From assembly GCA_014138725.1 (NCBI GenBank), contig JACJID010000005.1, positions 186,001 through 250,000 on the forward strand: a stretch of DNA of 64,000 nucleotides, written 5' to 3'. The translations under genes and the position numbers were made by a program. Under the pieces are notes generated by a model. The model had not been told where the DNA came from and did no database searches. It worked only from the letters and a program-made list of their open reading frames with translations. This document shows positions 26,435-60,579 of this stretch, piece by piece; the first letter of the stretch is position 1; every line of letters starts with the position of its first letter. Origin of the DNA: Kutzneria viridogrisea. Its GTDB lineage: Bacteria; Actinomycetota; Actinomycetes; Mycobacteriales; Pseudonocardiaceae.

Positions 26435-26812
26435 GTGGACAGGGCCTTGCGCAAGCTCGCCGAACTGCGTGAATGCGGTTTCCAGTTCATGAACCTGCCC
26501 GATGCCGACGGCCAACTGGACCGGATCATGGGTTTCCGGCACCTGCGGGGTTACCTGGATTCGCTGGTCTTCCGCTCGGAGACCGAGGCCCGCGCCGGAC
26601 GCATTCCCGCCGTGCACGCCTCCACCCGGCACGTGCGCGCCGTCTGGCTGTACGAGGGCACCCTCTCCGACACCATCGACCGCCTACTGGAGCTGCCGCT
26701 GCCCGGCGCCCCCACGGCCCCCACCCTGGCCAAGTGCGGCTCGGCCCCCGACCTGCTGCCCAACGGCCTGAACCCGTTCCAGCTGTGGACCCCACCGGGC
26801 GCGACGGCCTGA
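26435..26812 (+). CDS. hypothetical protein, 125 aa
   Basis: Soluble protein starting MDRALRKLAELRECGFQFMN, with MGFRHLRGYLDSLVFRSETE and AVHASTRHVRAVWLYEGTLS in the middle and a Pro-rich C-terminus. No family recognised. The GTG start has no clear ribosome site, so translation may depend on the small ORF before it. A double-DnaA-box repeat (26824-26935) begins 12 bp after the stop. Confidence 0.6.
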   Translation: MDRALRKLAELRECGFQFMNLPDADGQLDRIMGFRHLRGYLDSLVFRSETEARAGRIPAVHASTRHVRAVWLYEGTLSDTIDRLLELPLPGAPTAPTLAKCGSAPDLLPNGLNPFQLWTPPGATA

Positions 26813-26823
26813 CCCACCCAGTC

Positions 26824-26935
26824 CATCCCCCGCCACTCCCTGGGGGGCGACCCCGTTTCCAGCCTACCGCCCGCCCCACCCCGTTGATCTTGCTGAAGAT
26901 CCACATGTGGACAGCTCGCCGCCTGGGGACAACTC
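26824..26935 (-). repeat. dispersed intergenic repeat with two DnaA-box-like nonamers (copy R1)
   Basis: Read on the minus strand: TTGTCCCCA (26924-26932), nine-base spacer GGCGGCGAG, CTGTCCACA (26906-26914), the hairpin GATCTT-CAGC-AAGATC, then GGCGGTAGGCTGG, GGGGTCGCCCCCC and GGGAGTGGCGGGGGATG. It shares order and sequence with R2, R3 and R4. Here both nonamers have drifted by one base from TTGTCCACA. Confidence 0.88.
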
Positions 26936-26948
26936 AAGTCTGCGCAGG

Positions 26949-27686
26949 TCAGCCGGGTAGCGAGATGTGTAGGATGCGCCCGGTCGTGGTGAACCCGGCC
27001 CGGTTGTAGATCGCAGCCTCACGCTCACCCGCGGCCGTCAGGAAGGGCGTGTCCAGGCCCGCGTTGTACGCCGTGCGCGTCAGGTAGCTGGTGACGGCCG
27101 CGGCGATGCCACGTCGCTGCCAGGCGGGCCGCACGCCGATGCCCGCGATCTCCGTGGCGCCCGCGATCGGGGCGGTGTACATGCCGCCGCCGGCCGGCTC
27201 GCCGGACCGGGTCCGCACCAGCATCGCCATGCCGCCACGGTTGAGCATGGCGCGGGTCCTCGCCACGTCGGTGGCCTCGGGCGCGGGACTGCCGTACGCC
27301 TCGCACAGCGCGGTGTGCAGCGCCAGCAGATCCTCGTCGGAGGTCACTGTGAGCGCCTCGAACTCGGGGTCCAGCTCGATCTCGGGCACCGACTCCGGGG
27401 TGCAGGTCATCAGCGGGTGCAGCTGCTCCACCTCGAACCCGGCCGACTCCAGCCGCGGCCGCACGGCGGGGGCGCTGGCGGGCACGTACTCCAGCCGCGG
27501 CTTGCGGTTGCGGGAGCGGAACTCGGCGACCAGCACGTCGACCTCGGCGGACGTGGGCTCGGCACCGATCTCCGGCATCGCGTAGTTCACGTACGGGTTG
27601 TCGCTGTGCGCGTCGAACCCGGCGAGGAACGGCCCGATCCGGGTGTCGCGGCCCGCCAGCAGGTACTCGGTGATCTGCGTGTCCAC
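26949..27686 (-). CDS. GNAT-family N-acetyltransferase
   Basis: 245 residues from GTG 27686, seven bases after TAGCCT (leaderless). The C-terminal half holds the GNAT core: GGMYTAPIAGATEIAGIGVR, then the acetyl-CoA loop PAWQRRGIAAAVTSYLTR and AAIYNRAGFTTTGRILHIS. The N-terminal half looks like a degenerate second acetyltransferase domain (VNYAMPEIGAEPTSAEVDVL). Substrate unknown. Divergent from the merR gene with 87 bp between starts. Confidence 0.88.
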   Translation of the reverse strand: MDTQITEYLLAGRDTRIGPFLAGFDAHSDNPYVNYAMPEIGAEPTSAEVDVLVAEFRSRNRKPRLEYVPASAPAVRPRLESAGFEVEQLHPLMTCTPESVPEIELDPEFEALTVTSDEDLLALHTALCEAYGSPAPEATDVARTRAMLNRGGMAMLVRTRSGEPAGGGMYTAPIAGATEIAGIGVRPAWQRRGIAAAVTSYLTRTAYNAGLDTPFLTAAGEREAAIYNRAGFTTTGRILHISLPG

Positions 27687-27691
27687 GGCGC

Positions 27692-27713
27692 GCAGGCTAG
27701 CCCCGGCGGCCCC
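27692..27713 (-). promoter_or_regulatory. leaderless promoter of the GNAT gene
   Basis: The -10 TAGCCT (27694-27699) is separated from GTG 27686 by GCGCGCC. No Shine-Dalgarno sequence precedes the start. Confidence 0.45.
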
Positions 27714-27761
27714 GGCGCACACCGGGTTTTCGCCCCTGGCCTTGACGTCGGTGTGAAGGTC

Positions 27762-36770: not shown

Positions 36771-37733
36771 GTGGAGCAGAGACGTCTCGGTGATTCGGGT
36801 CTTGTCGTCAGCGCGGTCGGGCTCGGCTGCAACAACCTCGGCAGGCCGGGTACAGCGACGGAGTCGCTGGCCGGGGCGCGGGCCGTGGTGGAGGCGGCCC
36901 TGGACAACGGGGTGATGTTCTTCGACGTGGCCGACGTCTACGGGGCGCCCAGGGGTCGCAGCGAGGAGCTTCTGGGGCAGGCCCTGTCGGGGCGCCGCGA
37001 GCACGCCGTGATCGCCACCAAGTTCGGCGTGGACATGCAGGGTGTCAACGGCCCCGACTTCGGCGCGCGCGGCTCGCGGCGCTACGTGCGGCGGGCGGTG
37101 GAGTCCTCCCTGCGCAGGCTGAACACCGACTGGATCGACCTGTACCAGCTGCACCGCCCCGATCCGGCGACCCCGCTGGAGGAGACCCTGTCGGTGCTGG
37201 ACGACCTGGTGCACGAGGGCAAGATCCGCTACGTGGGGCACTGCAACCTGGCCGGGTGGCAGCTGGCCGACGCCGCGTGGTCGGCGAACTCGGCGAACGT
37301 GGCCGCCCCGGTGTCCGCGCAGAACCACTACTCCCTGCTGGAGCGCGAGGTGGAGCGCGAGGTCGTGCCCGCCTGCCAGCGGTTCGGTCTCGGGCTGCTG
37401 CCGTACTTCCCGCTGGCCAACGGCCTGCTGACCGGCAAGTACAGCCGGGAGGGGCAGCCGCCCGCGGGCAGCAGGCTGGCCGGGCGGGACCGGCTGCTGG
37501 CCGACGCGCCCTGGGACCGGATCGAGAAGCTGCGCGCCTTCGCCGAGGAGCGCAGCATGCCGATGGCCCAGCTGGCGATCGGCTGGCTGGCCGCGCAGCC
37601 CACGGTCGGCTCGGTGATCTGCGGGGCGACCAACCCGGACCAGGTCAGGGCGAACGCGAAGGCAGCGGACTGGACCCCGCTGCCCGAGGAGCTGGACGTG
37701 ATCGACGAGATCTGCCCGCCTGGCAGGCGCTGA
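36771..37733 (+). CDS. aldo/keto reductase
   Basis: 320 residues. The family pattern is complete: RRLGDSGLVVSAVGLGCNNL, the catalytic tetrad Asp/Tyr in FFDVADVYGAPRGRSEELLG, Lys in VIATKFG, and His in LYQLHRPDP; the C-terminal NADPH loop is SVICGATNPDQVRANAKA. It reduces an aldehyde or sugar ketone; the substrate is unknown. The GTG 36771 start is preferred for its position after TAAGGT. Divergent from the UDP-glucose dehydrogenase gene. Confidence 0.92.
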   Translation: MEQRRLGDSGLVVSAVGLGCNNLGRPGTATESLAGARAVVEAALDNGVMFFDVADVYGAPRGRSEELLGQALSGRREHAVIATKFGVDMQGVNGPDFGARGSRRYVRRAVESSLRRLNTDWIDLYQLHRPDPATPLEETLSVLDDLVHEGKIRYVGHCNLAGWQLADAAWSANSANVAAPVSAQNHYSLLEREVEREVVPACQRFGLGLLPYFPLANGLLTGKYSREGQPPAGSRLAGRDRLLADAPWDRIEKLRAFAEERSMPMAQLAIGWLAAQPTVGSVICGATNPDQVRANAKAADWTPLPEELDVIDEICPPGRR

Positions 37734-37970
37734 GCCAGTTGTCCACAGGCGCCGAGTTGTCCACACGTGGATCTTCATCAAGATCAACTAGGGGGTGCGC
37801 GGGGTAGACTGGAACTGGGGACGCCCCCCGAGGAGTGGTGGGGGATGCCCCTGAGTGGGGGTCCGACCCAGGTCGTAGCGGAGTGTGATGCTCATCATCC
37901 CCCGGTAGCAGGCGAGCAATCCCCTCGCGGCCGACGCGGGCGCGGGCCGGAGCACAGCACAGTGGTCTAC
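37734..37970. other. 237-bp intergenic stretch, mostly repeat R2
   Basis: From the aldo/keto reductase stop to the 36-aa ORF. The first 114 bp are repeat R2; the remainder (37848-37970) has TGATGCTCATCATC (a short inverted repeat near 37887) and no supported gene. ORFs drawn across the repeat are not credible. Confidence 0.5.
37737..37847 (+). repeat. dispersed intergenic repeat with two DnaA-box-like nonamers (copy R2)
   Basis: Two perfect TTGTCCACA boxes (37739-37747 and 37757-37765) with nine-base spacer GGCGCCGAG, then CGTGGATCTTCATCAAGATC with its hairpin, the conserved GGGGTAGACTGG, GGGGACGCCCCCC and GAGTGGTGGGGGATG. The best preserved copy of the four. Confidence 0.92.
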
Positions 37971-41113: not shown

Positions 41114-41665
41114 ATGCTGAGCGAGCTCCAGCTCAAGAACATCCAGTCCATGTTCGACGTGCTCGACCAGGACGGCAACGGCCTGATCGAACGGGAGGAC
41201 CTGACCTCCGTCGGCGAGGGCATCACCGAGGTGTTCGCGCACGAGGAGTCCTCGCCGCACCACGCCGCCGTGACCAAGGCCTACGAGGCGTGGTGGGAGC
41301 AGATCCGCGCCGGGGCCGACGCCGACGGGGACGGCCGGATCACCAGGGAGGAGTTCGTCGCCGCCGTGGAGAAGGGGCTGCTGTCGGACCCCAACTACCT
41401 CGACGTGATCGCCGCCGCGGCCGACACCATCTTCGACGCCGCCGACGTGAATGGCGACGGGGTCCTCAACCAGACCGAGGTCGTCGCCCTCTACAGCGGG
41501 GCCGGTGTGGGCGCCGCGGCGGCGATCGGCGCATTCAAGCAGATCGACACCAACGGGGACGGCAGCATCAGCCGCGAGGAGTGGCAGCAGTCCGTGCGGG
41601 GCGCCTTCACCAGCACGGACCCCGGCTCCACCGGCGCCAACATGCTGGGCAACGCTTCCAGCTGA
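41114..41665 (+). CDS. EF-hand calcium-binding protein (calerythrin-like)
   Basis: 183 residues from ATG 41114 after GGGAGAGGG. Four EF-hand loops are visible: DQDGNGLIERED (residues 17-28), DADGDGRITREE (residues 72-83), DVNGDGVLNQTE (116-127) and DTNGDGSISREE (150-161). All four loops keep Asp at position 1 and acidic residues at position 12, so all can bind calcium. Such proteins act as calcium buffers or sensors in actinobacteria. Repeat R3 lies just downstream. Confidence 0.93.
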   Translation: MLSELQLKNIQSMFDVLDQDGNGLIEREDLTSVGEGITEVFAHEESSPHHAAVTKAYEAWWEQIRAGADADGDGRITREEFVAAVEKGLLSDPNYLDVIAAAADTIFDAADVNGDGVLNQTEVVALYSGAGVGAAAAIGAFKQIDTNGDGSISREEWQQSVRGAFTSTDPGSTGANMLGNASS

Positions 41666-41672
41666 GGAACAA

Positions 41673-41782
41673 ATCCCCCACCACTCCCTGGGGGGCGTCC
41701 CCGTCACCAGTCTACCGCCCACCCCCGACACCTGATCTTGCTCAAGATCCACATGTGGACAACTCGCCGCCTGTGGACAGCC
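41673..41782 (-). repeat. dispersed intergenic repeat with two DnaA-box-like nonamers (copy R3)
   Basis: On the minus strand: CTGTCCACA (41772-41780), spacer GGCGGCGAG, TTGTCCACA (41754-41762), hairpin GATCTT-GAGC-AAGATC, GGCGGTAGACTGG, GGGGACGCCCCCC and GGGAGTGGTGGGGGAT. It fills the whole gap between the EF-hand and binding-lipoprotein genes. Confidence 0.92.
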
Positions 41783-42802
41783 TCAGGGCCGCGCCTGCTT
41801 GGGCATCGTGACGAAACCCTGCTCGACCAGCCAGTCCCTGGCCACGTCGGCGGGGTCCTTGCCCTGCACGTCGACCTGGGCGTTCAGCTTGAGCATGGTG
41901 TCGTTGTCCAGCCGCTCGGCGACCGGCCGCAGCACCTGCTCGATCTGCGGGTGCTCGGCCAGCACCTTCGAGGACACGTTGACGGCGGCGTTGTACTGCG
42001 GGAAGAAGTGCCTGTCGTCGGCGAGCACGCCCAGGTCCAGGGACAGGATCCGGGCGTCGGTGGTGAACACCTCGCCGAAGTTGCAGGCGCTGGCGTCCTT
42101 GGTGGCCTGGTAGACGGCCCCGGTGCCGAGGATCTTGACGTTGCCGGGCGGCACGTCGATCCCGTAGTGCTTGGTCATGCCGGGGAACCCGTCGTTGCGG
42201 CTGGCGAACTCGGTCTCCAGGCAGAACGTGGCGGCCGAGGGGTCGCGGCGGGCGAGCGCGGCCAGGTCGGACAGGGTGTGCACCCCGTACTTGTCCTGCA
42301 CCTGCTTGGTCATCGCGATGGCGTAGCGGTCGTTGACCGGGGACATGGCGATCCAGTCGATGCCGTGCGCCTTGTCCTCGGCGCGGACCTTGGTGAACTG
42401 CTCCTGAGGGTCGGTGATCACGTCGTTGTGCCCGAGGTAGCTGATCCACGCCGTGCCGGTGTACTCCCAGGTCAGGTCGATCTGCCCGGCCTTCAACGCG
42501 TTGCGGGCGCTGGTGGAGCCCTGGATGTTGGTGAGGTCGCGCACCTCGGCGCCCGCGGCGGACAACGCCAGCTCGGCGAGGTAGCCCAGCACGATGTTCT
42601 CGGTGAAGTCCTTGGAGCCCACGGCCAGTTCGACCCCGCGCAGCTCCGGCACCTCCTTGATCGAGCCCGGCCCCACCCGCACCGGCACGGCCGAGCCCGA
42701 GCTCAACCCGCAGCCGCCGAGCAGCACACCGACCAGCAGCAGTCCTACGACACGCCGCACCACCGCCCTGTGCCCGATTGATTCGCTCGCAAGCTCGCTC
42801 AT
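41783..42802 (-). CDS. osmoprotectant ABC importer, substrate-binding lipoprotein (OpuC/ProX type)
   Basis: 339 residues. A lipoprotein signal ends in the lipobox LLGG-CG. The mature part is a quaternary-amine-binding fold: VAVGSKDF-type start reading LAVGSKDFTENIVLGYLAEL, QIDLTWEYTGTAWISYLG, and CNFGEVFTTDARILSLDLGV. The first seven codons (MSELASE) come from a 20-nt sequence also found at 15477, so they are probably not part of the ancestral signal peptide and the true signal starts near HRAVVRRVVGLLLVG. Last gene of the operon; overlaps the permease stop as ATGA. Confidence 0.93.
   Translation of the reverse strand: MSELASESIGHRAVVRRVVGLLLVGVLLGGCGLSSGSAVPVRVGPGSIKEVPELRGVELAVGSKDFTENIVLGYLAELALSAAGAEVRDLTNIQGSTSARNALKAGQIDLTWEYTGTAWISYLGHNDVITDPQEQFTKVRAEDKAHGIDWIAMSPVNDRYAIAMTKQVQDKYGVHTLSDLAALARRDPSAATFCLETEFASRNDGFPGMTKHYGIDVPPGNVKILGTGAVYQATKDASACNFGEVFTTDARILSLDLGVLADDRHFFPQYNAAVNVSSKVLAEHPQIEQVLRPVAERLDNDTMLKLNAQVDVQGKDPADVARDWLVEQGFVTMPKQARP
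42783..42802 (-). repeat. 20-nt start-codon repeat encoding MSELASE (copy 2)
   Basis: TGAGCGAGCTTGCGAGCGAA, identical to 15478-15497, again spanning the overlap between a stop codon and the next start codon. Confidence 0.8.
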
Positions 42803-58354: not shown

Positions 58355-59698
58355 ATGGTCGGACGCATCCCGACGGGCACCAGGTCGGCACGTCCCGCGC
58401 CGTGGCAGAACTGGGCGGGCACTGAGCGGTGCCACCCGGTGCACGTGGCCCGGCCCGGCAGCGTGGAGGGCATCGCCGAGGCGGTCCGCAACGCCGCCAG
58501 GGACGGGTTCACCGTGCGCCCGAGGGGCAGCGGGCACTCGTTCACCGGGGTCGCCGCGACCGACGGCGTGGCGATGGACCTCGGCGAGTGGTCCGGGCTG
58601 GTCAGTGCCGAGGGCTCGACGGGGCTGGTCACGGTGCGCTCCGGCACCCCGCTGCACCAGCTGAACTCCGAACTGGACCGGCTCGGCCTGGCCATGGCCA
58701 ATCTCGGCGACATCGACACGCAGACCGTGTCCGGGGCGATCTCCACCGGGACGCACGGCACCGGCGCCCGGCTCGGCGGGCTGGCCACGCAGGTGCGCGG
58801 GCTCGAACTGGTGCTCGCCGACGGGTCCGTGGTCAGCTGCTCCCCCGACGAACGCCCCGAGCTGTTCAGCGCGGCGCGGGTCGGCCTCGGCGCACTGGGC
58901 GTGATCAGCACGGTCACCCTGCAGTGCGTACCCTCGTTCGTGCTGCACGCCAGGGAGTACCCCGGTCGGCTGGACGAGATCCTGGAGCGGTTCGACGAGC
59001 TGACCGGGTCCGAGGACCACGTGGAGTTCCACTGGTTCCCGCACGGCGACCGCGTGCTGGTGAAGCGGAACACGCGACTGCCCGCGGGCACCGCGCCGGA
59101 GCCGATGTCGCGGGCTCGGCGGTTCTACGAGTACGAGCTCATGGAGAACGGTGCGTTCGGCCTGGTCTGCCGGCTCGGCCGCGCGATCCCGTCCACCGTG
59201 CCCGCGCTGAACCGCATGGTCGCCAACCTGGTGTCCGAGCGCTCGTACAGCGACGTGTCGCACCGGGTGTTCACCACGCCCCGGCGGGTGCGGTTCGTGG
59301 AGTCGGAGTACGCCGTGCCGCGCGAGTCGCTGCACGAGGTGCTGCGCGAGTTCCGCGCCTCGATGCCCACGCTGAAGCACCCCGTGATCGTCCCGGTGGA
59401 GGTGCGAGTTGCCGCCGCGGACGACATCCCGCTGTCCACCGCGTACGGCAGGGACACCGCCTACATCGCGATCCACCAGTACCTCGGCATGCCCTACCGG
59501 GACTACTTCGACCGCTTCGAGTCGATCGTCGGCGCGGTGGGCGGCCGCCCGCACTGGGGCAAGATGCACACCCTGCGCGCCGAGGACCTCGCCGAGCGGT
59601 ACCCGAGGTTCGAGGACTTTCGGAAAGTCCGCGCCGCGGTGGACCCCGACGGGGTGTTCCGCAACGCGTACCTGGACCGCGTGCTCGGCCAGCCGTGA
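58355..59698 (+). CDS. FAD-linked aldonolactone oxidase (D-arabinono/L-gulono-1,4-lactone type)
   Basis: 447 residues from ATG 58355, five bases after GGAGGG. The FAD-binding domain has VRPRGSGHSFTGVAATDGVA and ISTGTHGTGARLGGLATQVR. The C-terminal ALO domain includes VEFHWFPHGDRVLVKRNTRL, IAIHQYLGMPYRDYFDRFES and the HWGKMHTL motif that holds the catalytic His/Lys. Oxidises a sugar lactone with release of H2O2, or to another acceptor. Divergent from the PLP enzyme gene. Confidence 0.93.
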   Translation: MVGRIPTGTRSARPAPWQNWAGTERCHPVHVARPGSVEGIAEAVRNAARDGFTVRPRGSGHSFTGVAATDGVAMDLGEWSGLVSAEGSTGLVTVRSGTPLHQLNSELDRLGLAMANLGDIDTQTVSGAISTGTHGTGARLGGLATQVRGLELVLADGSVVSCSPDERPELFSAARVGLGALGVISTVTLQCVPSFVLHAREYPGRLDEILERFDELTGSEDHVEFHWFPHGDRVLVKRNTRLPAGTAPEPMSRARRFYEYELMENGAFGLVCRLGRAIPSTVPALNRMVANLVSERSYSDVSHRVFTTPRRVRFVESEYAVPRESLHEVLREFRASMPTLKHPVIVPVEVRVAAADDIPLSTAYGRDTAYIAIHQYLGMPYRDYFDRFESIVGAVGGRPHWGKMHTLRAEDLAERYPRFEDFRKVRAAVDPDGVFRNAYLDRVLGQP

Positions 59699-59776: not shown

Positions 59777-59885
59777 TTTGTCCACAGCTGGCCGAGTTGT
59801 CCACAGGCTGTGCGTGAGCATGATCCACAACGGGGGTGCGCGGTAGACTGGATGCGGGGACGCCCCCCGGTGAGGGTGGGGGGTT
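59777..59885 (+). repeat. dispersed intergenic repeat with two DnaA-box-like nonamers (copy R4)
   Basis: Two perfect TTGTCCACA boxes (59778-59786 and 59797-59805), with a ten-base spacer in place of nine, then a degenerate middle in which the GATCTT hairpin is lost, GCGGTAGACTGG, GGGGACGCCCCCC and GTGGGGGGTTC. Gaps on either side hold no supported gene. Confidence 0.88.
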
Positions 59886-59919: not shown

Positions 59920-60579
59920 TCAGTTGAGCAGCGACCGGACCGCCGAGCTGATCGGCACCTCGCCGTTGACCAGTTCCAGCACCTGCCCCGCGGTGCGCGG
60001 CTCGTCCAGCAGCGCGACCAGCACGGCGGCCACGTCGGCCCGGGTCACCGTGGCCCTGGGGACCGAGGGCGGCGCGAGGTGAACCTGTCCGGTCGGCGCG
60101 TCGTCGGTGAGCCCACCGGGACGCAGCACGGTCCAGTCCAGGTCCCTGGCGCTGACCTCCTGCTCGGCGGCGAGCTTGGCGCGCAGGTAGGCGGCCCAGA
60201 TCTCGTCGGTGCCGGGGGCTGGGGCGCGGTCCACACCCATCGAGCTGACCAGCAGGTAGCGGCGCACACCGGCGAGTTCGGCGGCCTCGGCCAGCAGCAC
60301 GGCCGCGGCGCGGTCCACGGTGTCCTTGCGGTCGGCCCCACTACCGGGTCCGGCACCTGCGGCGAACACCACGGCGTCGGCGCCCTTGAGGTGCCCGGCG
60401 AGCTCATCGGCCCCGGCCCGCTCCAGGTCGCACACGACGGCCTCGGCGCCCGCGGCGTGCAGGTCCTCGGTGTGGTCGGGGTTGCGCACCAGCCCGACCG
60501 GCGCGTCCGCTCTCGCGGCGAGCAGCCGCTCCAGCTCCAGCGCGATCTTGCCGTGTCCGCCCGCGATCACCACTCGCAT
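59920..60579 (-). CDS. NAD(P)H-binding SDR-like protein
   Basis: 219 residues. The N-terminal VVIAGGHGKIALELERLLAA keeps the GxxGxxA fingerprint; later ADAVVFAAGAGPGSGADRKD, RYLLVSSMGVDRAP and LDWTVLRPGGLTDD are typical of the atypical SDR family with NAD(P)-binding and no full Tyr-Lys dyad (YLRAKLAAE supplies a Tyr and Lys). ATG 60579 lies seven bases after TAGGGT, so leaderless. Confidence 0.92.
   Translation of the reverse strand: MRVVIAGGHGKIALELERLLAARADAPVGLVRNPDHTEDLHAAGAEAVVCDLERAGADELAGHLKGADAVVFAAGAGPGSGADRKDTVDRAAAVLLAEAAELAGVRRYLLVSSMGVDRAPAPGTDEIWAAYLRAKLAAEQEVSARDLDWTVLRPGGLTDDAPTGQVHLAPPSVPRATVTRADVAAVLVALLDEPRTAGQVLELVNGEVPISSAVRSLLN

Follow-up and report, generated by a model that had tools for sequence, protein, structure and literature searches.

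The 64,000-nucleotide stretch of Kutzneria viridogrisea DNA analysed here (the window) carries four copies, R1 to R4, of a short non-coding repeat, which begins with a pair of nonamers resembling the binding site (box) of the replication initiator DnaA. The window covers C5:186001-250000 and lies 28-92 kb away from dnaA (C5:278509), in an assembly of 10.25 Mb and 11 contigs. Contigs, genomes of relatives and loci are coded by C-, G- and L-numbers, respectively, and genes are those of a codon-usage caller trained on the window. The box pair is followed by a promoter-like hexamer in a layout that the repeat has in common with sites ahead of DNA-uptake genes. We lean, by a little over an even chance, towards the view that each repeat is one of many scattered copies of a regulated promoter module and has no gene of its own to drive; such copies are predicted to be orphan DnaA-dependent promoters and also a DnaA sink.

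The four copies comprise the following parts:

26824-26934, minus strand: R1, between the convergent genes 26435-26812 (plus) and 26949-27722 (minus)
26924-26932, minus strand: R1 box 1, TTGTCCCCA
26906-26914, minus strand: R1 box 2, CTGTCCACA
26861-26866, minus strand: R1 putative -10 element TAGGCT, in the same register as in the other copies (core match C5:212844-212868)
37737-37847, plus strand: R2, directly 3' of the stop codon of an aldo/keto reductase gene (36885-37733)
37739-37747, plus strand: R2 box 1, TTGTCCACA
37757-37765, plus strand: R2 box 2, TTGTCCACA
37805-37810, plus strand: R2 putative -10 element TAGACT, 39 bases past box 2
37817-37847, plus strand: R2 right half, the GGGGACGCCCC inverted repeat and then a G-rich stretch; expected start region of any transcript
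41672-41781, minus strand: R3, occupying the gap between the convergent genes 41114-41665 (plus) and 41783-42727 (minus)
41772-41780, minus strand: R3 box 1, CTGTCCACA
41754-41762, minus strand: R3 box 2, TTGTCCACA
41709-41714, minus strand: R3 putative -10 element TAGACT (core match C5:227692-227716)
59777-59885, plus strand: R4, a diverged copy with a 10-base spacer and without the GATCTT hairpin, between the convergent genes 58439-59698 (plus) and 59920-60573 (minus)
59778-59786, plus strand: R4 box 1, TTGTCCACA
59797-59805, plus strand: R4 box 2, TTGTCCACA
59844-59849, plus strand: R4 putative -10 element TAGACT (core match C5:245842-245866)

A first-pass annotation of the window had described these repeats. 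Reading of the sequence together with matches to a sequence model bears out their places and strands, and R2 and R4, as it had reported, have two exact copies of TTGTCCACA each; R1 has TTGTCCCCA and CTGTCCACA, and R3 has CTGTCCACA and TTGTCCACA. A GATCTT-N4-AAGATC hairpin, which it had listed among the shared parts, is not a defining one: the middle is diverged in eight own copies including R4, and copies read from other genera have no such hairpin. The statement that all four fill gaps between genes stands as far as their intergenic location goes and can be sharpened, as R1, R3 and R4 lie between convergent genes and R2 between genes of the same direction.

R1-R4 belong to a family of approximately 66 copies in this genome and are not a chance resemblance. 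The right-half pattern GGTAGACTGGN4GGGGNCGCCCC (at most 2 mismatches) has 65 matches in the genome and the reversed pattern none; one further copy with an extra base brings the number to 66, and the sequence model yields 69 matches at E up to 0.01. Exact box pairs occur 31 times (reversed control 0), and 25 of them are inside repeats. The 65 pattern matches are distributed over C5, the dnaA contig (18), C2 (14), C8 (11), C6 (10), C3 (7), C4 (2), C9 (2) and C10 (1), with none on C1, C7 and C11. The right-half plan of R2 is found in six other genera as well.

Conservation and identity of the boxes

For the analysis of constraint, the 66 own copies were chosen by the right half alone. Mean identity to the majority base is 0.92 in box 1 and 0.97 in box 2, compared to 0.82 in the spacer and 0.79 in the middle; the nonamers are more constrained than their surroundings, as expected if they are what the first-pass annotation took them for. 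GGTAGACTGG reaches 0.98, having itself been used for picking the copies. Departures of box 2 from TTGTCCACA are confined to positions 1 (7 copies), 3 (6), 5 (5) and 4 (1), with none at positions 2, 6, 7, 8 and 9, and most of the variation in box 1 is at position 5, where 18 of 66 copies have G instead of C. The eight own copies with a diverged middle (identity 0.32-0.57, R4 included) have 5 mismatches in 144 box positions. Even with a diverged middle the putative boxes are retained, and their substitutions are at positions where DnaA boxes vary.

In Streptomyces coelicolor and Mycobacterium tuberculosis, TTGTCCACA is described as the DnaA box of high affinity (PMC4285127), and the E. coli consensus is given as TTWTNCACA, loose at positions 3 and 5 (PMC12371093). 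The repeat nonamer corresponds to the local high-affinity box and varies at known loose positions. The gaps between dnaA and dnaN at 18 loci, including one masked (G002) and one split by a record end (G032), contain 91 boxes within one mismatch as opposed to 5 for reversed controls, near-palindromes being counted on both strands; on the other side of the record break in G032 (L338) there are two exact boxes. The nonamer and its variants at oriC of these genomes, CTGTCCACA included, are the same as those in the repeats, which agrees with the earlier identification as DnaA boxes. The DnaA of K. viridogrisea carries the GRDHTT signature. Judged from these correspondences, DnaA is the probable reader of the box pair.

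The box-bearing plan extends to other genera. Right-half matches were read in G034 (20 of 72), G069 (15 of 27), G059 (5 of 5), G035 (10 of 25), G007 (10 of 52) and G015 (10 of 31), 70 in total. When the 66 own copies are added, a strict box is present between -85 and -25 of the right half in 125 of 136, compared to 3 of 408 control windows (three per copy). The box closer to the right half usually begins between -43 and -47, while the intervening sequence differs by genus; copies within a genus share a middle sequence absent from other genera. In G059 the second box is inverted at the same place in 3 of 5 copies. Inspection by eye shows further genus-specific features: in G069 (L231-L245) a palindrome of the type CGAACGGTCCGTTCG replaces box 1 in many copies and a conserved GGTAACC stretch follows the single box, which may point to the site of a second protein, and in G034 (L211-L230) a conserved TCACCCGATCGTG stands ahead of the box pair in many copies.

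Promoter-like layout and DNA-uptake genes

Box pairs without the right half form a second class of 44 promoter-class sites, 6 from the own genome and 38 from relatives. Among 59 pairs in relatives, 40 were fetched, 18 overlap listed repeat copies and one (G059) was left out; 2 of the 40 were set aside because they have the right half. The right half was screened for with a simple pattern, and one of the 44 sites, L292, is possibly another diverged repeat. The genes next to these sites include the following:

L039, L294, L303, L308, L312: comEA-type gene; in L039 a ComEC-type gene then follows
L060, L285, L301, L304, L310, L313, L317: Ssd/CpaE-type gene; in L060 a weak T2SSE match follows
L033, L283, L298, L316: yraN; in L033 a ComM-type Mg-chelatase gene follows
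L289, L293: ssb
L049, L287, L318: CpaB/RcpC-like gene
L291, L299, L314: DUF4192 gene

By hidden Markov model (HMM) matches, 21 of the 44 sites front DNA-uptake or pilus genes, several of which are orthologues within a genus. The comEA and ssb classes are represented in two genera each and every other class in three or four. Nine other scanned next genes belong to other or no families, the next gene was unscanned at L297, L300, L305, L306 and L311, and none was called on the same strand at L282, L286, L292, L296, L309 and L320.

A hexamer of the form.A...T begins 39-40 bases past box 2 in 33 of the 44 sites, that is, in all six own sites, which prompted the spacing test, and in 27 of 38 sites from relatives. 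At other three-base windows the count averages 1.5 and never exceeds 6. With nine likely orthologues removed, 24 of 35 sites have the hexamer at this place, compared to a mean of 2.2 and a maximum of 8 in shuffles. The A and T of this hexamer occupy the two most characteristic positions of a sigma-70 -10 element. In the own repeats, TAGACT or TAGGCT starts 39 (60 copies) or 38 (6 copies) bases past box 2, and in the repeats of the six other genera TAG is located at 36-40, except for two copies at 47; the scan found no box in 12 of the 136 copies. A -10-like element, with A as its second and T as its sixth base, is accordingly present in a fixed place. Since TAGACT is in the same register as the hexamer of the uptake-gene sites, the repeat is laid out in its left part like those promoters.

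Neither this repeat nor a DnaA-box pair ahead of competence genes was found described in the open-licence literature among the matches listed. The putative operators described here, box pairs without the right half before comEA-type, Ssd/tad, yraN, cpaB-like and ssb genes in several genera, are new. The box pair and -10-like hexamer at L039, L049, L060, L033 and L281-L320 constitute a candidate competence regulon motif. The DUF4192 genes (L291, L299, L314) share the uptake operator, which suggests a role in uptake. A helix-turn-helix (HTH) regulator beside the CpaB- or comEA-type promoters was not recognised by eye at six loci, where FmdB-like and DegV-like neighbours were seen and no HMM was run.

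The operator could also be read by a dedicated DNA-uptake activator with a DnaA-box-like site, in whose regulon the repeats would lie. We consider this possible, though well short of an even chance. The strict geometry and fixed layout are in its favour, as is the association with comEA-type, Ssd/tad, yraN, ssb and cpaB-like genes. In Micrococcus luteus the cascade controlling competence is stated to be still unidentified (PMC12849477), and an HTH protein beside the CpaB gene is mentioned as a candidate regulator (PMC8467076). Two observations at oriC, given below, point the same way: exact pairs in G039 coincide with a lack of exact boxes at its oriC, and the oriC of K. albida is reported without classic boxes. 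Set against this are the identity of the nonamer with a published high-affinity DnaA box (PMC4285127), the same variants at oriC, and a spacing and orientation that vary by genus, which is unusual for a rigid dimer site.

Gene context, spread and position on the chromosome

Own copies lie between convergent genes in 50 of 66 cases, compared to 7 of 64 background gaps of at least 90 bases in 144 kb (Fisher 2e-14); the background includes gaps holding copies. Of 110 copies examined in relatives, 14 without a called neighbour on one or both sides were dropped, and 53 of the other 96 are convergently flanked. This placement and the GGGG/CCCC inverted repeat with its variable loop would fit a bidirectional transcription terminator, a role which we nevertheless regard as very improbable: it leaves boxes and TAGACT unexplained, and R2 has no T run. 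Folding of the right half (at most 20 copies per genus) gives mean z values by genus of 0.10 to -0.75 forward and -0.48 to -1.67 reverse against mononucleotide shuffles, and because these are near the shuffles, the right half is not read as structured RNA or as a terminator. An intrinsic terminator was rejected on the same folding values and the missing T run. A search for RNA families detected only a tRNA at gathering level in the window and none at E up to 5 in 37700-37900.

At the R2 site the element comes or goes as a unit, to judge from alignment of this one site. Compared with Solihabitans fulvus (L096) there is one alignment gap, 37738-37847, which is the element; the left flank and AGGTCGTAG onward align, and the approximately 20 bases in between align weakly. 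In Kutzneria buriramensis (L091) the element is absent from the site too, with a larger gap. The first-pass annotation had considered a small mobile element, and this unit-wise presence and absence, together with the genus-specific middles, supports mobile or duplicative behaviour. Amycolatopsis bullii has a region corresponding to that around R3, where the gap past an OpuAC-type gene contains a diverged copy (L170:9286-9389, plus strand); none was seen in that gap in a sister species (L167).

Repetitive extragenic palindromic (REP) sequences, bacterial interspersed mosaic elements (BIMEs) and miniature inverted-repeat transposable elements (MITEs) are short, dispersed, intergenic repeats, which often lie downstream of genes and show genus-specific expansions. 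The repeat has these traits in common with them and differs by its conserved cargo, a DnaA-box pair plus promoter-like element, and by its origin-proximal location. A non-autonomous element of this type, carrying a DnaA-responsive promoter and kept only by its own copying, would account for the empty site at R2, for middles common within and not between genera, for the left end, which is sharp at the first box, and for copy numbers that differ widely between species. It would likewise account for three tandem copies approximately 213 bases apart in Actinokineospora inagensis (L154:8666-9199, minus strand), in all of which the boxes are kept. Neighbouring copies in G007 are approximately 200-290 bases apart. 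Such self-copying alone is a somewhat doubtful explanation, given that boxes and -10 element are retained across seven genera with the middle left free, that the copies are origin-biased, and that searches of plasmids and phages with R2 as query found no similar sequence. Constraint across genera suggests that the copies are of use to the host, as a DnaA sink or as orphan promoters; their presence or absence as units, the middles specific to a genus and the very uneven copy number point to self-copying. The two are compatible.

Right-half matches are present in 36 of 119 relatives, all of them among the 71 of the same family; none of 48 genomes from other families of the order has a match. The box-gap-core pattern, sought in 394 genomes of the class, occurs 50 times in the own genome, 3 times in the two other family members that the sample contained and once in the remaining 391.

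The position relative to the origin was mapped for 84 listed copies out of 161 model matches in nine relatives; none of the 84 is in G028, which leaves eight closed or nearly closed genomes. Their lengths, as used here, were rounded and for G003 and G059 exceed that of the main contig. The median distance from dnaA is 0.08 of the half-genome and 47 of 84 copies are within 0.1 (Kolmogorov-Smirnov against uniform, 5e-29), an origin-proximal location as in datA of E. coli. The three listed copies of G039 alone show no significant bias (p 0.15). The 59 box pairs chosen without the right half are also origin-biased (median 0.17, p 4e-11). In the two genomes examined for transfer RNA (tRNA) genes, G005 and G006, 34 of 109 tRNA genes and 27 of 46 copies are within 0.1 (Fisher p 0.001; Mann-Whitney 0.003 and 0.017), the copies exceeding the control in both. 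The proposal that the repeats mark origin-proximal DNA therefore stands in part: listed copies in relatives cluster near dnaA, and tRNA genes share the gradient about half as strongly. A core region around oriC is described for K. albida (PMC4210621). The copies have no clear polarity with respect to the replication fork (37 toward the origin and 47 away among the 84 listed). No parS site was found in the window, L087 or L090; L088 contains two parS-like pattern matches at about 282.6 and 284.1 kb of C5, a few kb from dnaA.

Titration of DnaA, as suggested by the first-pass annotation after the example of datA, is in keeping with the constraint on the boxes, their match to oriC and the clustering near the origin. 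As the sole function it is too narrow, because box pair and TAGACT are laid out as in the promoters of DNA-uptake genes. A pure sink near oriC, with TAGACT incidental or serving another protein, would explain box constraint and degeneracy, the concentration of repeats and box pairs near dnaA and the placement between convergent genes, away from promoters; an enrichment of DnaA boxes near oriC is also described for E. coli (PMC12371093). It leaves unexplained why TAG.CT is kept at a fixed distance from box 2 and why the same layout precedes uptake genes, its origin bias is partly common to tRNA genes, and same-genus relatives have far fewer copies. We hold it to be unlikely.

A probable activator-dependent promoter module

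The module is most likely an activator-dependent promoter. The predicted operator consists of two DnaA-box nonamers in tandem, mostly 18-19 bases from start to start, and is followed by 36-40 bases of free sequence and a putative -10 element (TAGACT or TAGGCT) without a -35 element; a GC-rich inverted repeat sits at the expected transcription start. Operator and -10 element, minus the right half, would drive DNA-uptake genes in these bacteria. DnaA would most likely bind the pair and recruit or hold RNA polymerase, and a repeat transcript would start in GGGGNCGCCCC, mostly running against the convergent gene. The some 130 box sites, crowded toward oriC and duplicated early in replication, could in addition draw DnaA away from oriC and so act as a sink.

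Several observations weigh against this interpretation. A -35 element (TTGACA-like, 16-18 bases upstream) is missing from R2, the only copy examined; an activator-dependent promoter may lack one. The right-hand gene reads toward the element in 58 of 66 own copies, of which 50 are convergently flanked and 8 have both neighbours opposed to them, so that any transcript would be antisense or very short. R2 has no terminator, and the promoter interpretation does not account for the conservation of the right half. Copies in G069 and G015 keep at most one strict box, with two strict boxes in 0 of 15 and 0 of 10. A right-half match is missing from 35 of the 71 family relatives, and six same-genus genomes have 4-19 matches each, compared to 65 in the own genome at the same stringency. 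The origin bias is partly a general core-gene gradient, and the excess over it is only about twofold because tRNA genes are origin-biased too; G032 alone, with 2 listed copies of 36 matches, one of them 4.2 Mb from dnaA, is not clustered (p 0.31). As to the reader, G015 and G039 have no exact TTGTCCACA in the dnaA-dnaN gap, and G039 (gap L334) has 12 exact or near-exact pairs elsewhere in the genome, which may indicate that DnaA is not the only reader. The K. albida paper describes the oriC of that species as lacking classic boxes (PMC4210621), and E. coli DnaA is described as preferring box pairs 2-3 bp apart (PMC11317965), as opposed to 8-11 here. Separately, a general role as promoter of a flanking gene was rejected, the right-hand gene facing the element in those 58 copies.

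Known systems resemble the proposed module in part. D78, H24 and H69 are chromosomal DnaA-box clusters of Streptomyces coelicolor. Like these clusters and like datA and the DnaA-reactivating sequences (DARS) of E. coli, the repeats are non-coding DnaA-box sites outside oriC and concentrated near it. In contrast to them, they comprise approximately 66 small units of a common plan instead of one or a few clusters, each with two boxes mostly 18-19 bases apart, a -10-like element and a conserved right half. The DnaA-regulated double-box promoters of E. coli, as outlined in PMC11317965, likewise have box pairs upstream of genes. There the spacing is 2-3 bp, whereas here it is 8-11 with 39-40 bases to the -10-like element; moreover, most copies here front no gene, and the targets are largely DNA-uptake genes.

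The switching of competence genes is little understood in Actinomycetota; for M. luteus, PMC12849477 states that the controlling cascade is unidentified. An operator-promoter layout ahead of uptake genes makes competence control directly testable and is a starting point for asking how these bacteria might regulate DNA uptake and couple it to replication. With DnaA as the reader, DNA uptake would be linked to the replication initiator, and titration of that initiator could be studied in the dispersed copies as a natural experiment. The repeats further illustrate that a promoter-like module can propagate as non-coding DNA under continued constraint on its binding sites. Tentatively, in Pseudonocardiaceae DnaA might activate a DNA-uptake regulon (comEA-comEC, tad pilus, ssb, yraN-comM), the operator-promoter of which was copied to dozens of gene-less sites round the origin, coupling initiation, DnaA availability and competence via one pool of sites.

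The tail past the right half, finally, differs between own subfamilies when inspected by eye; the copies C5:143126, C9:141839, C5:66263, C4:976772 and C3:1093583 are examples. One subfamily has a short palindrome of the type TAGTCGTTACGACTA, and the tail of another ends in GTCACCAGGTAG, which could pair with CTGGTGAC of its own core.
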